Positions 5,592-8,162 of a stretch of 12,238 nt of DNA are shown here, piece after piece. Made by a program: the position numbers and the translations under genes. The notes below the pieces were generated by a model, which saw only the letters and a list, made by a program, of their open reading frames with translations, made no database searches and was not told the DNA's origin. The stretch comes from an uncultured archaeon (GTDB lineage: Archaea; Halobacteriota; Methanosarcinia; Methanotrichales; Methanotrichaceae): NCBI GenBank assembly GCA_902385025.1, contig CABMDX010000068.1:1-12238 (forward strand). Reading direction: 5' to 3'. Every line of letters starts with the position of its first letter. Position 1 is the first letter of the stretch.

Positions 5592-5981
5592 ATGCTGATC
5601 AGATCTGCTCTGAATATACTCCTGGCTGAGGATAACCCGGTAAATCAGAAGATGGCGCTCATCGTGCTGAGGAAACTGGGCTATCATGCCGATACCGCTA
5701 ACAATGGCCAGGAGGTCCTGCATGCCCTGGAAGGCCATGCCTATGATCTGGTTTTAATGGATATACAGATGCCAGAGATGGATGGCATCGAGGCCACCAG
5801 AATGATTCGCAAACGCTGGCCCCAGGGCCCCAAGATCATAGTAGTAACCGCATTCGAGCCAGAGATGTGCCGCGAGCTTTGCTTTGATGCGGGAGCAGAT
5901 GATTTCCTCAACAAGCCAGTAAAAATGGATGAGCTTGGAGCTGCAATAGAGAGAAATGCAGGAATAATTCAGACGGCATGA
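5592..5981 (+). CDS. Stand-alone receiver-domain response regulator (CheY-like)
   Basis: A single phosphoacceptor receiver domain of 129 residues with no output domain. The signature residues are all present: acidic pair Glu13-Asp14 in ILLAEDNPVNQK, phosphoacceptor Asp57 in LVLMDIQMPEMDG, Thr86 in IIVVTAFEP and Lys108 in FLNKPVKMDEL. The NPVNQK start is typical of receivers found at the end of hybrid histidine kinases, so this may act as a phosphorelay or diffusible partner of a kinase encoded elsewhere; no kinase is in the window. The start at ATG 5592 has GAGG four bases upstream and gives a complete first beta strand. The stop overlaps the next gene's ATG (ATGA), so the TPR protein is probably its co-expressed partner. 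The receiver call is firm; the signal and output are unknown. Confidence 0.93.
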   Translation: MLIRSALNILLAEDNPVNQKMALIVLRKLGYHADTANNGQEVLHALEGHAYDLVLMDIQMPEMDGIEATRMIRKRWPQGPKIIVVTAFEPEMCRELCFDAGADDFLNKPVKMDELGAAIERNAGIIQTA

Positions 5982-6295
5982 AATCCAAAGATATAGGGGG
6001 ATATATGAAAGCTTGCAGAGTCCTAACAAGATTATTGGTCATCCTGCGAGAACTCAATGATAGTGCTGAACATGATCCAAGGATTGCCTTGTCCTTGAAT
6101 CTCAAAGGCCTTGCTCTCAGCAACCAGGGCAAGTACAATGAGGCCATTGAAGCCTTTGATAAAGCAATTGAGATGGCTCCTGAATGGAAGGTGCCAAGGA
6201 ATAACAAGAGCATTGCCCTCCAAGAGTTGGGCTGGCACGAAAAAGGAGAGATTGAAGTGTGGCATAACCAGATACAGGAGATCCCGGGGGAATAA
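5978..6295 (+). CDS. Small TPR-repeat protein downstream of the response regulator
   Basis: A 105-residue protein with one clear tetratricopeptide repeat (about 36-69: ALSLNLKGLALSNQGKYNEA, then IEAFDKAIEMAPEW, with the canonical G-LAL-GKY-EAI-FDKAIE pattern) and a second, diverged repeat at 70-100. TPRs mediate protein-protein contacts, so it may bind the response regulator or its target. The ATG at 5978 overlaps the upstream stop as ATGA, suggesting translational coupling. An alternative ATG at 6005 (96 aa) is preceded by a purine-rich AGGGGG four bases away and is equally plausible. There is no signal peptide. The TPR assignment is good; the biological role is inferred only from the operon arrangement. 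Confidence 0.8.
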   Translation: MKSKDIGGYMKACRVLTRLLVILRELNDSAEHDPRIALSLNLKGLALSNQGKYNEAIEAFDKAIEMAPEWKVPRNNKSIALQELGWHEKGEIEVWHNQIQEIPGE

Positions 6296-6423: not shown

Positions 6424-6540
6424 TTATTCGCAGGTATCTAGCAGCCCCTTCTTCTTTCCGCCTCTCTTATCTCCGAGCTTGATCGGCTCTACCTTCGCTT
6501 CTTCTTCCTTCTTCTCTTTCTTTTCTTCGTGGTGTGTCAA
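6424..6540 (-). CDS. Small charged protein, paralogue 1 of a tandem pair (38 aa, TTG start)
   Basis: A 38-codon gene not recognisable as a known family. It opens THHEEKKEKKEEE, a Lys/Glu-rich stretch likely to be helical or disordered, then AKVEP and IKLGDKRGGKKKGLLDTC with a single cysteine, ending in Glu and TAA. No signal or membrane segment is present. The start is TTG at 6540, aligned exactly with the ATG of its neighbour at 6789. No in-frame ATG or GTG lies between it and the upstream stop, and GGGGA seven bases before the TTG can act as ribosome site. A TATA-like GGTATAATTAAT (6574-6585) lies about 35-45 bp upstream. Comparison with the neighbour shows 24 identical residues in a row, with four nucleotide differences there, all synonymous, which strongly supports translation in this frame. 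Function unknown. Confidence 0.72.
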   Translation of the reverse strand: MTHHEEKKEKKEEEAKVEPIKLGDKRGGKKKGLLDTCE

Positions 6541-6573
6541 TTTACATTCCCCATTAATTCTTCAAGCTAATAT

Positions 6574-6585
6574 TAATTATACCTT
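6574..6585 (-). promoter_or_regulatory. TATA-like box of small gene 1
   Basis: On the minus strand the sequence reads GGTATAATTAAT, placing the transcript start near 6553. The leader would be short but would retain the GGGGA ribosome site at 6548-6552. Confidence 0.4.
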
Positions 6586-6640
6586 ACGACTGATCCGCAA
6601 AATCTCTTAATGATCGAAGATCTTCCGGATATTCTCAGGA

Positions 6641-6659
6641 CGATATAAACTATATATCG
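6641..6659. repeat. Inverted repeat between the two small genes
   Basis: CGATATA (6641-6647) is the perfect inverse of TATATCG (6653-6659) around a 5-base spacer. It lies 10 bp past the stop of small gene 2 and upstream of gene 1, so it could be a terminator stem or an operator. Confidence 0.4.
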
Positions 6660-6669
6660 GTTATTCTGG

Positions 6670-6789
6670 CTATTGGCAGGTATCTAGCAGACCTTTCTTT
6701 TTTCCGCCTCTCTTATCTCCGAGCTTGATCGGCTCCACCTTCGCTTCCTTATCTTCTGTCTTTTCTTTCTTGGCTTCGTGATGGGTCAT
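6670..6789 (-). CDS. Small charged protein, paralogue 2 of a tandem pair (39 aa)
   Basis: A 39-codon gene with an ATG start: MTHHEAKKEKTEDKEAK, then VEPIKLGDKRGGKKKGLLDTC, a final Gln and TAG. The signals are the better of the pair: GGAG (6799-6802) nine bases before the ATG, in a GGAGTTGAT context that matches the archaeal anti-Shine-Dalgarno well, and a TATA box, GATATATAC (6851-6859), about 65 bp upstream. It differs from paralogue 1 by one extra codon, four residue changes (E/A, K/T, E/D, E/Q), the start codon and seven synonymous changes. The N-terminal acidic/basic part varies while the Gly/Lys-rich C-terminal part and its cysteine are invariant, so the C-terminal part is probably the working portion. 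The Lys-rich stretch could bind nucleic acid, but that is only a guess. Function unknown. Confidence 0.77.
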   Translation of the reverse strand: MTHHEAKKEKTEDKEAKVEPIKLGDKRGGKKKGLLDTCQ

Positions 6790-6850
6790 TTAAATCAACT
6801 CCAAAAACTATGTATGCTGTTTTAGTTTATTAATGTTTCGACAAATAACG

Positions 6851-7004: not shown

Positions 7005-8162
7005 CTAATCTGCCTGCTCCAGGATGCAAGTGGGATCCTCTCCCGATATATCACCCTGATAGAAGTAAGCCTTCTGGCGACACCCTCCACACAGCTCCAG
7101 ATACTCGCACTTCCCGCAGGCACCCTTGAGTCTGGACTTGATGCTTCGCAGGGCTAGAAGTTCTGGAGATGGATGTTCGATCAAGATATCCCGGAAGGAG
7201 CGCTCCCGTACATTTCCCACGACTACCTGCGGCATGAAGTGGCAGGGATGCACATCTCCCCGGTGATTGATATTGGCAACCTTCACTCCTGTGGAGCAGC
7301 CACCGGCATTGGTCAGAAGGTTTTTGACCTGCTCGTATCGTGGGTCTCCTTTAAGTAACTCCAGCAGATAGGCTCCGTCCATGGGCGAATCTGTGGTCAG
7401 GATCTCGATATTCTCTCCTTTCAGCTCCATCGCTGCCTCTGCGAGAAGCCGGATCACACTGCGCCGCTGCTCAGGCGTAACGTCCCTATCGGAAATCCCT
7501 GCACCTCTGCCTGTGGGCACCAGGTGATAGAGACAAAAACGGGGTATTTCTTCCTGCAAAGCGAGATTGAGCAGAGCCGGAACATCCTGCCAGTTGTCGC
7601 GCGTGAGGGTTATTCTCAGGCCGGTCTTGAGACCTGCATCACGGGAGTTCTTCAATCCCTGCAGCGCCCTGGCAAAGGCTCCGCCGACGCCCCGGAATTC
7701 GTCATGCTTCTCAGGTATCGCTGAGTCCAGGCTCACGCCCACATATCTGATCCTGGCCTCTGATAGCAACTCTGCTACTTCTGGAGTGATCAATGTTCCA
7801 TTTGTGGAGATCACAGTTCGCAGCCCCCTTTCACGAGCATGGAAGGCCAGAGGATAGAAATTGCGGCTCATGAGGGGCTCGCCGCCGGTGAAGATGAGGA
7901 TGGGCACCTTCATCTCGGCCAGGCTGTCCACCAGGCGCAGGCCCTCTTCCAGAGTCATCTCTTCGCGGGCTTTGACCTGCGCATCCATGTAGCAGTGCTG
8001 ACAGGCAAGATTGCACTGCGCCGTTATATTCCACATCACCACGGGCTTTGTCTGTGCAGAGAACCTGAGCAGATCGGGCGGCAGGCTCTCGCAACTGTCG
8101 CTCGCTCGCAGAGCCTCCCAGACGGTAGCCTGATCAGCCAGTGCTTTGGAAAAAATGATCAT
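7005..8162 (-). CDS. Radical SAM/SPASM enzyme of the AhbD/AhbC/NirJ group, probable late step of archaeal heme synthesis
   Basis: A 385-residue cytosolic iron-sulfur enzyme. The SAM-cleaving 4Fe-4S cluster ligands are Cys50, Cys54 and Cys57 in WNITAQCNLACQHCY; FTGGEPL follows as the SAM-binding strand and STNGTLI as the next conserved block. The C-terminal SPASM-type region supplies further cysteines: GGCSTG, HPCHF, CGKCEYLELCGGC and DPTC, which would bind auxiliary clusters. GNVRERSF is shared with NirJ and AhbC. In the siroheme-dependent heme route, AhbC removes acetate side chains from didecarboxysiroheme and AhbD converts Fe-coproporphyrin III to heme. The tail with CGGCRQKAY and the place in this operon suggest AhbD; the N-terminal LLRFSAQTKPVVMWN resembles AhbC/NirJ2. 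It lies 20 bp after cobA-hemD, with GGAAGG upstream of its ATG, so is last in the operon. The family is firm, the exact step is not. Confidence 0.88.
   Translation of the reverse strand: MIIFSKALADQATVWEALRASDSCESLPPDLLRFSAQTKPVVMWNITAQCNLACQHCYMDAQVKAREEMTLEEGLRLVDSLAEMKVPILIFTGGEPLMSRNFYPLAFHARERGLRTVISTNGTLITPEVAELLSEARIRYVGVSLDSAIPEKHDEFRGVGGAFARALQGLKNSRDAGLKTGLRITLTRDNWQDVPALLNLALQEEIPRFCLYHLVPTGRGAGISDRDVTPEQRRSVIRLLAEAAMELKGENIEILTTDSPMDGAYLLELLKGDPRYEQVKNLLTNAGGCSTGVKVANINHRGDVHPCHFMPQVVVGNVRERSFRDILIEHPSPELLALRSIKSRLKGACGKCEYLELCGGCRQKAYFYQGDISGEDPTCILEQAD

Follow-up and report, generated by a model that had tools for sequence, protein, structure and literature searches.

A tandem pair of microprotein genes in a Methanotrichaceae genome represents an unnamed, protein-selected family of methanogens

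The window analyzed here, a 12,238-nucleotide stretch of DNA from an uncultured member of the Methanotrichaceae, carries a tandem pair of very short genes that are almost certainly selected protein genes and that, judged by their sequence, belong to a large and unnamed archaeal microprotein family of methanogens (Table 1). The pair is no curiosity of a single genome: The family is lineage-wide, its members occurring singly, in tandem, with a doubled module, or fused to DUF1059, and the reading of an earlier note on this DNA, which had described a pair of selected microproteins, is right and extends further than first claimed. Methanothrix and Methanosarcina are the source of much acetate-derived methane. 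A 23-residue module that is found in most sampled genomes of both families, ends in a nearly invariant cysteine, and has no name provides a concrete target in the genetically tractable Methanosarcina, and the family as a whole is a clean example of selected genes that are partly hidden by length cut-offs.

Table 1. Positions of the microprotein genes, their conserved modules and upstream signals, and the neighboring radical SAM gene in the window.
Feature	Position	Strand	Basis
Upstream microprotein gene, 39 aa, ATG start	6670..6789 (stop included)	minus	ORF list, codon alignment, own-genome search, homologues
Downstream paralogue, 38 aa, TTG start	6424..6540 (stop included)	minus	ORF list, codon alignment, own-genome search
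C-terminal module A16-C38 of the upstream copy, part conserved family-wide	6676..6744	minus	family alignment, column counts
C-terminal module A15-C37 of the downstream copy, part conserved family-wide	6430..6498	minus	family alignment, column counts
Promoter-like sequence of the upstream copy: BRE-like TCGAAAC, then ATTAATAA	6827..6841	minus	sequence; 55-base alignment with G006 and G017
Promoter-like sequence of the downstream copy: TCGTAAG, then GTATAATTAA	6573..6589	minus	sequence; 55-base alignment with G006 and G017
Shine-Dalgarno-like GGAG of the upstream copy	6799..6802	minus	sequence
Shine-Dalgarno-like GGGG of the downstream copy	6549..6552	minus	sequence
NirJ1/AhbC-like radical SAM/SPASM protein, last gene of siroheme/heme-type cluster	7005..8162	minus	profile matches

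Both of the near-identical minus-strand frames that the earlier note had described are indeed present, and a repeat finder pairs them as a direct repeat of 120 bases with 79% identity and a spacing of 246 bases. The codon alignment reproduces the note's tally of seven synonymous codon differences outside the start and stop codons (ACC/ACA, CAT/CAC, GAA/GAG, GTG/GTA, AAA/AAG twice, and GGT/GGG), four amino acid changes (A6E, T11K, D13E, and Q39E), and one whole-codon indel between the upstream and the downstream copy, with the ATG/TTG start difference left uncounted, and it agrees that a stretch of 24 residues from E-A-K-V to L-L-D-T-C is identical in both copies with four silent differences. 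Either of the two first codons would be read as Met, and a TTG start ahead of a THH-type N-terminus is also found in relatives (e.g., loci L032, L034, and L062). In a search of the window's own genome, the copies match at E = 2.2e-21 and 7.4e-16, far beyond chance, and no third copy was found at E values up to 10 in this assembly, which is 78.6% complete. The two proteins are rich in Glu and Lys, highly charged, and carry a single cysteine each. Neither Rfam matches at the gathering score nor tRNAs were found in the window. The earlier description of the genes as unannotated holds in part, given that several relatives are listed as "hypothetical protein" in public records.

The best evidence for protein genes comes from the family rather than from the pair. 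For 103 distinct codon rows supplied by a profile search, pN/pS amounts to 0.28, the silent sites being saturated (pS 0.79), and the closer pairs among the relatives (n = 291, pS 0.1 to 0.5; non-independent pairs) give a JC-corrected ratio of mean pN to mean pS, i.e., the kind of dN/dS estimate across homologues that the earlier note had called for, of around 0.15. A control reading shifted by one base gives a pN/pS of 1.53 over 1128 stop-free pairs and encounters a stop in 31 of 79 gap-free rows; the low ratio in frame as opposed to 1.53 in the shifted one points to selection on the protein in its actual frame. An earlier pN/pS value of 0.136 was biased low because its rows came from a regular expression that fixed most motif residues, and the profile-picked rows are therefore preferred. 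A test of the homologues for stops and frameshifts, set beforehand, revealed one internal stop among the listed matches at E < 1e-3 (a single TAA in G188:C76). The selection that had been seen in the window pair is thus borne out at the protein level family-wide, but the pair alone is no proof of it, since the two copies look homogenized and this homogenization would partly account for their few silent differences.

Each protein of the family consists of a variable, charged N-terminal stretch and a conserved C-terminal module of 23 residues with the consensus A-K-V-E-P-I-x-P-G-D-x-R-G-G-K-K-K-x-L-L-D-T-C. The Glu/Lys-rich N-terminus frequently reads MTHHEEKK and elsewhere begins with MPEE, MVEE, MEEK, or MAEE. 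Among 116 distinct tails, the best conserved module columns are R12 and L19 (115 each), P5 and C23 (112 each), V3 (110), and L20 (106), as counted on searches that did not require the cysteine and that left out P0121, P0122, L117 to L122, and all loci from L136 on, the latter having been fetched with a cysteine-requiring pattern. The four tails without Cys comprise two degenerate first modules, P0044 with its frame-shifted C-terminus, and L067 of genome G047, where the residue is Gly. The "invariant cysteine and the Gly/Lys block" of the earlier note stands for the cysteine, which is nearly invariant, and less so for the block, in which the first Gly of Gly-Gly is Val in 23 of the 116 tails; the three lysine columns hold Lys in 93, 108, and 88 of them. 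While the module mostly lies at the very end of the protein, some relatives carry extra residues beyond it (CYPTSSG...KK), and four loci encode doubled modules in one polypeptide (L044, L125, L128, and L135). In four Methanotrichaceae loci (L049, L050, L059, and L063), the module forms the C-terminal tail of a DUF1059-like domain (PF06348) that is matched by the DUF1059 profile in L049, L050, and L063, i.e., in the three fused relatives profiled, whereas the window proteins have no DUF1059 match. A weaker, module-like stretch opens a Methanolobus GbsR/MarR-like regulator (L117:1363-1992, E 4.1e-5; L118:1364-1993, E 0.0056) that starts with VARVTPVHPGDERV and is named a GbsR/MarR family regulator in one source; we treat this resemblance as a lead.

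When the 43-aa open frame of the downstream copy served as protein query, 155 proteins were retrieved at E ≤ 1, and a 15-row profile found 429 proteins at E ≤ 0.1 when scoring the 7983 candidates that shared most words. At the genome level, the homologue search suggested in the earlier note uncovered relatives in 118 of 199 genomes of the class by using a 24-column profile of the C-terminal part at E ≤ 0.1. These comprise 44 genomes in f1, which is the window's own family and which we read as Methanotrichaceae, 72 in f3, read as Methanosarcinaceae, and one each in f5 and f7 (E 0.081 and 0.035) that we take as chance; one f3 genome, G085 (E 0.0033), matches solely via its GbsR-like protein. Six of the listed f1 genomes lack a match, three of them being less than 70% complete. 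Within f3 alone, the module is found in 77 of 111 genomes at E ≤ 0.001 and in at least one genome each of 10 of the 14 genera. Genome G116 carries a tandem pair of the genes and, in addition, a third locus. No genome of the Methanosarcinaceae-type genera g16 (11 listed) and g27 (6 listed) has the module at E values up to 0.001, and the microprotein can therefore not be essential to a process common to all members. In a sample of the phylum, 65 of 392 genomes match at E ≤ 0.01, comprising 15 of f1, 47 of f3, and three outside both families (G329, G356, and G500) whose weak, partial matches lie in long Arg-rich frames without L-L-D-T-C and were discarded as chance. The well-scoring listed matches of the class are restricted to Methanotrichaceae- and Methanosarcinaceae-type genomes.

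This distribution was also seen with a degenerate DNA pattern for R-G-G-K-K-[KR]-x-L-L-D-T-C, which overlooks members that deviate from these residues, e.g., the R-V-R-P-K-R forms. Searched against 84,980 bacterial and archaeal species with one genome each, it found 53 stretches, of which 50 lie in entries named after Methanothrix/Methanosaeta, Methanotrichaceae, Methanosarcina, Methanosarcinaceae, Methanosarcinales, or Methanosalsum and the remaining three in entries named only "Euryarchaeota archaeon". The same pattern had no match in viral contigs. A plasmid search by tblastn and a second viral scan with tblastn as its confirmation step returned nothing either, but these are weak nulls, since tblastn is apparently blind to such Glu/Lys-rich sequences and confirmed 0 of 589 stretches in the very collection in which the plain pattern then found 53; for viruses, the pattern scan carries more weight. 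The earlier note, whose author was aware of no family with this sequence, is upheld by database comparisons: Neither window peptide matches Pfam, NCBIfam yields a single match for the upstream copy (11.8 bits against a cut-off of 285) and none for the downstream copy, and searches of PDB return nothing at E ≤ 1 for a Methanosarcina member and a sole match at E 6.1 for the module profile. No description of the family was found in the literature listings searched, although the supplementary tables of the M. mazei small proteome may list it; the strings RGGKKKG and VEPIHPSEQR did not occur in that search, and LLDTC was found in unrelated papers only.

As proposed in the earlier note, each copy in the window has a TATA-like box and a ribosome site of its own, as seen by sequence for both (Table 1). 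Among 45 upstream regions of relatives, TATAATTA is present in 16 and ACCGGAAG in 10. A strict BRE/TATA expression (CCGnAAn followed by a TATA-like string) matches 9 of these 45 regions, compared to 0.055 expected from letter shuffles, and the matches end 36 to 37 bases before the start in every case; both window copies fall outside this strict form, with TCG instead of CCG. Looser TATA-like strings, counted without a control, occur in 28 further upstream regions. Genomes G006 and G017 share the tandem arrangement of the window, and we compared the 55 bases before each start by gapped alignment with 100 letter shuffles each. For the upstream copies, the window scores z 7.0 against G006 and 7.2 against G017 (7.0 to 7.7 among all three genomes), and for the downstream copies 8.6 and 4.3, respectively, with 2.7 for the remaining pair, whereas upstream and downstream promoters compared with each other give z-scores of only -1.3 to 1.4. 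The promoters thus match their positional counterparts and not their neighbors, which shows that the duplication is old and rules out a recent tandem duplication. By contrast, the coding copies of the window are 86% identical to each other and 77% to 84% identical to their positional counterparts in G006 and G017, while the copies within G006 (80%) and within G017 (79%) are no more alike than counterparts. These three genomes are most simply read as descending from an ancestral pair that already had separate promoters, the coding sequences having undergone gene conversion in the lineage of the window.

The pair lies downstream of an operon-like run of genes on the same strand that encode a presumably hemL-type aminomutase (named from its sequence), a porphobilinogen deaminase, a fused uroporphyrinogen-III methyltransferase/synthase, and the NirJ1/AhbC-like radical SAM/SPASM protein. 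The latter scores 341 and 335 bits in comparison to cut-offs of 650 for NirJ1 and AhbC. Two radical SAM proteins of the window's genome are near-equal on the AhbC profile (334.2 and 334.4 bits for G000:C44:17-1093 and the window protein), both far under the cut-off, and the best AhbC-profile matches of G004 and G061 (355 bits) also stay below it, suggesting that Methanotrichaceae may use a divergent AhbC/NirJ type. All four Methanosarcinaceae-type genomes tested have an AhbC over the cut-off, and in the module-bearing ones among them (G116, G040, and G041), it is located away from the module. Across 113 rows, which were gathered with a cysteine-requiring regular expression that dropped L067 and are not fully de-duplicated, a radical SAM gene of the heme cluster lies within 6 kb of the module in 31, all of them from f1. 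A SudAB/NfnAB-like pair, our reading of FAD/NAD-binding and glutamate synthase-type matches, is the neighbor in 30 rows (17 of them also with ArsR or ArsM), HPS-RraA plus FlaK-like genes in 14, YjbQ or its neighbor in five, and polyphosphate-type genes in three, with none of these sets in another 30; the names other than SudAB/NfnAB and the polyphosphate-type ones come from profiles. The loci span 1.4 to 17 kb, many with around 1.5 kb per side, where an absence weighs little. Neighbors are alike within a lineage and different across lineages, a shift that offers no basis for guilt by association, and we regard the radical SAM gene as a frequent neighbor in Methanotrichaceae rather than as a functional partner. 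The gene context lends no support to a dedicated maturase. In the Methanosarcina-type loci L043, L071, and L092, the microprotein gene sits between genes that we take, from their sequences, to be polyphosphate kinase-like and exopolyphosphatase-like; a polyphosphate link was dropped, this arrangement not being seen in the other neighbor rows, many of which come from short loci.

The binding or redox role of the microproteins that the earlier note put forward as speculation is plausible. We tentatively think that the module docks on a partner and that the cysteine does thiol or metal chemistry there, a reading that is possible but falls short of being probable. The charged N-terminal part would be a disordered spacer and the module a short docking motif that would contact a single conserved partner protein through its V-x-P-[IV] stretch and its terminal L-L-D-T-C, with the R-x-x-K-K block strengthening the hold electrostatically. 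As a thiol switch, in a mixed disulfide, or as a metal or cobalt ligand, the lone cysteine would provide the active chemistry, the outcome would be redox-dependent control of the partner, and the two promoters would allow the same tail to be made under two conditions. A conserved end behind a variable spacer fits such a docking tail, and the occurrence of the module as a stand-alone, doubled, or DUF1059-fused unit shows that it is portable. AlphaFold (41-row alignment) predicts short helices at residues 4 to 13 and 34 to 37 and no globular fold (mean pLDDT 69.9, pTM 0.17), which would fit a motif that folds on its partner, though the low confidence may just reflect the 39-residue query. CP12-type regulators are short disordered proteins that dock into an enzyme by a cysteine-bearing region at their C-terminus; we compare them with the window proteins in principle only and claim no sequence relation. 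The docking reading has to contend with the change of neighbors across lineages, with the lack of matches in the listed g16 and g27 genomes, with the Gly that replaces Cys in L067, and with the basic R-x-x-K-K block, which equally suits nucleic acid binding. Indeed, the K/R-rich module might instead be a nucleic acid- or ribosome-binding tail that attaches to RNA or DNA, e.g., in a stress or dormancy factor, with the cysteine being secondary. The basic R-G-G-K-K-K block and the module-like stretch at the N-terminus of the Methanolobus regulator (L117 and, more weakly, L118) agree with this, but charge-driven binding would not need the conserved L-L, Val, Pro-Ile, and Cys, and the lysine columns rank below Pro, Arg, L19, and Cys in conservation. 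The L117 stretch, moreover, lacks the L-L-D-T-C end, and a protein search with it returned two proteins only, though this search missed the protein of L118 and was thus not exhaustive. Overall, we consider such a tail unlikely.

The fusions to DUF1059, a predicted small metal-binding family, could also speak for a metal chaperone or buffer in which the N-terminal His-His and the C-terminal Cys bind the metal and the fused domain adds further Cys/His residues. The MTHH start of many members, the four fused loci (three by profile), and the ArsR and ArsM genes adjoining Methanosarcina-type loci are in line with this idea, yet HH is absent from the many members with MPEE, MVEE, MEEK, or MAEE starts and therefore no feature of the family, and a lone Cys makes a weak site, so that metal handling strikes us as quite unlikely. 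It is highly improbable that the peptides are RiPP precursors whose core the SPASM radical SAM enzyme next door modifies at Cys, as might be imagined for a short peptide with a Gly/Cys core that has such a gene nearby in the window and in many Methanotrichaceae relatives, all the more since the enzyme scores well under the curated NirJ1/AhbC heme-family cut-offs. However, this maturase-like neighbor is confined to f1 among the compared rows (many of them from short loci) and other lineages have other neighbors, while the enzyme itself is part of a heme-type cluster and ranks among the two best matches to the AhbC profile in its genome, so that heme synthesis explains its presence; in G116, G040, and G041, the AhbC over the cut-off sits apart from the module. 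RiPPs usually keep their leader and vary their core, whereas here the N-terminus varies and the C-terminal end is kept. The AhbC comparison and the varying neighbors ruled out a RiPP precursor as first choice. Hardly any weight can be given to a non-coding RNA or DNA element that merely resembles coding sequence or to a recent, functionless duplication. The ORFs are short and one has a TTG start, but purifying selection acts in the actual frame and is absent from the +1 frame, the frames are open in nearly all listed homologues, no Rfam match reaches the gathering score, and the divergence of the promoters shows that the duplication is old. Non-coding RNA specifically was ruled out by the Rfam null together with the frame-specific selection.

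Two small proteins of Methanosarcina mazei invite comparison with the window pair. MtrI (MM_2401), a small protein of the Mtr complex, is reported to have 68 aa that form four helices and, at the N-terminus, a zinc ribbon with four cysteines; through Cys40 it is a ligand of the MtrA cobalt, and its binding is induced by oxygen. It is reported from Methanosarcinaceae, Methanoperedenaceae, and Methanocomedenaceae, with Methanotrichaceae not being named (PMC12774963). MtrI resembles the window genes in being an overlooked, stand-alone, and order-restricted small gene of varying context, with a cysteine that is functional in MtrI, but the window proteins are 38 to 39 aa long with one cysteine each and no four-cysteine zinc ribbon, and this difference in size and cysteine number rules out identity. 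MtrI nonetheless sets a published precedent in this lineage for a single cysteine as cobalt ligand of a core complex. MtrR, according to its published description, is an oligomeric, hydrophilic, and uncharged protein of ca. 50 (49) aa that is bound to MtrA and likewise represents a small protein of the same order (PMC13370731). The highly charged, Glu- and Lys-rich window proteins are set apart from it by its lack of charge, which on that description excludes identity. It is rather doubtful, though conceivable, that the family is a portable cysteine-capped docking module specific to Methanotrichaceae and Methanosarcinaceae that would bring a thiol into one conserved target and thereby provide these methanogens with a common switch on a core enzyme, responsive to redox state or oxygen and operating alongside MtrI yet independently of it, be it used alone, doubled, behind DUF1059, or perhaps ahead of a GbsR-type regulator.

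Two minor observations concern genes next to members of the family. One of the DUF1059 fusions is adjoined by a DUF1059-like ORF without module tail (L049:8478-8693). On the plus strand of the window, a lone response-regulator receiver domain (5592-5981) overlaps a small TPR protein (5978-6295) by four bases.
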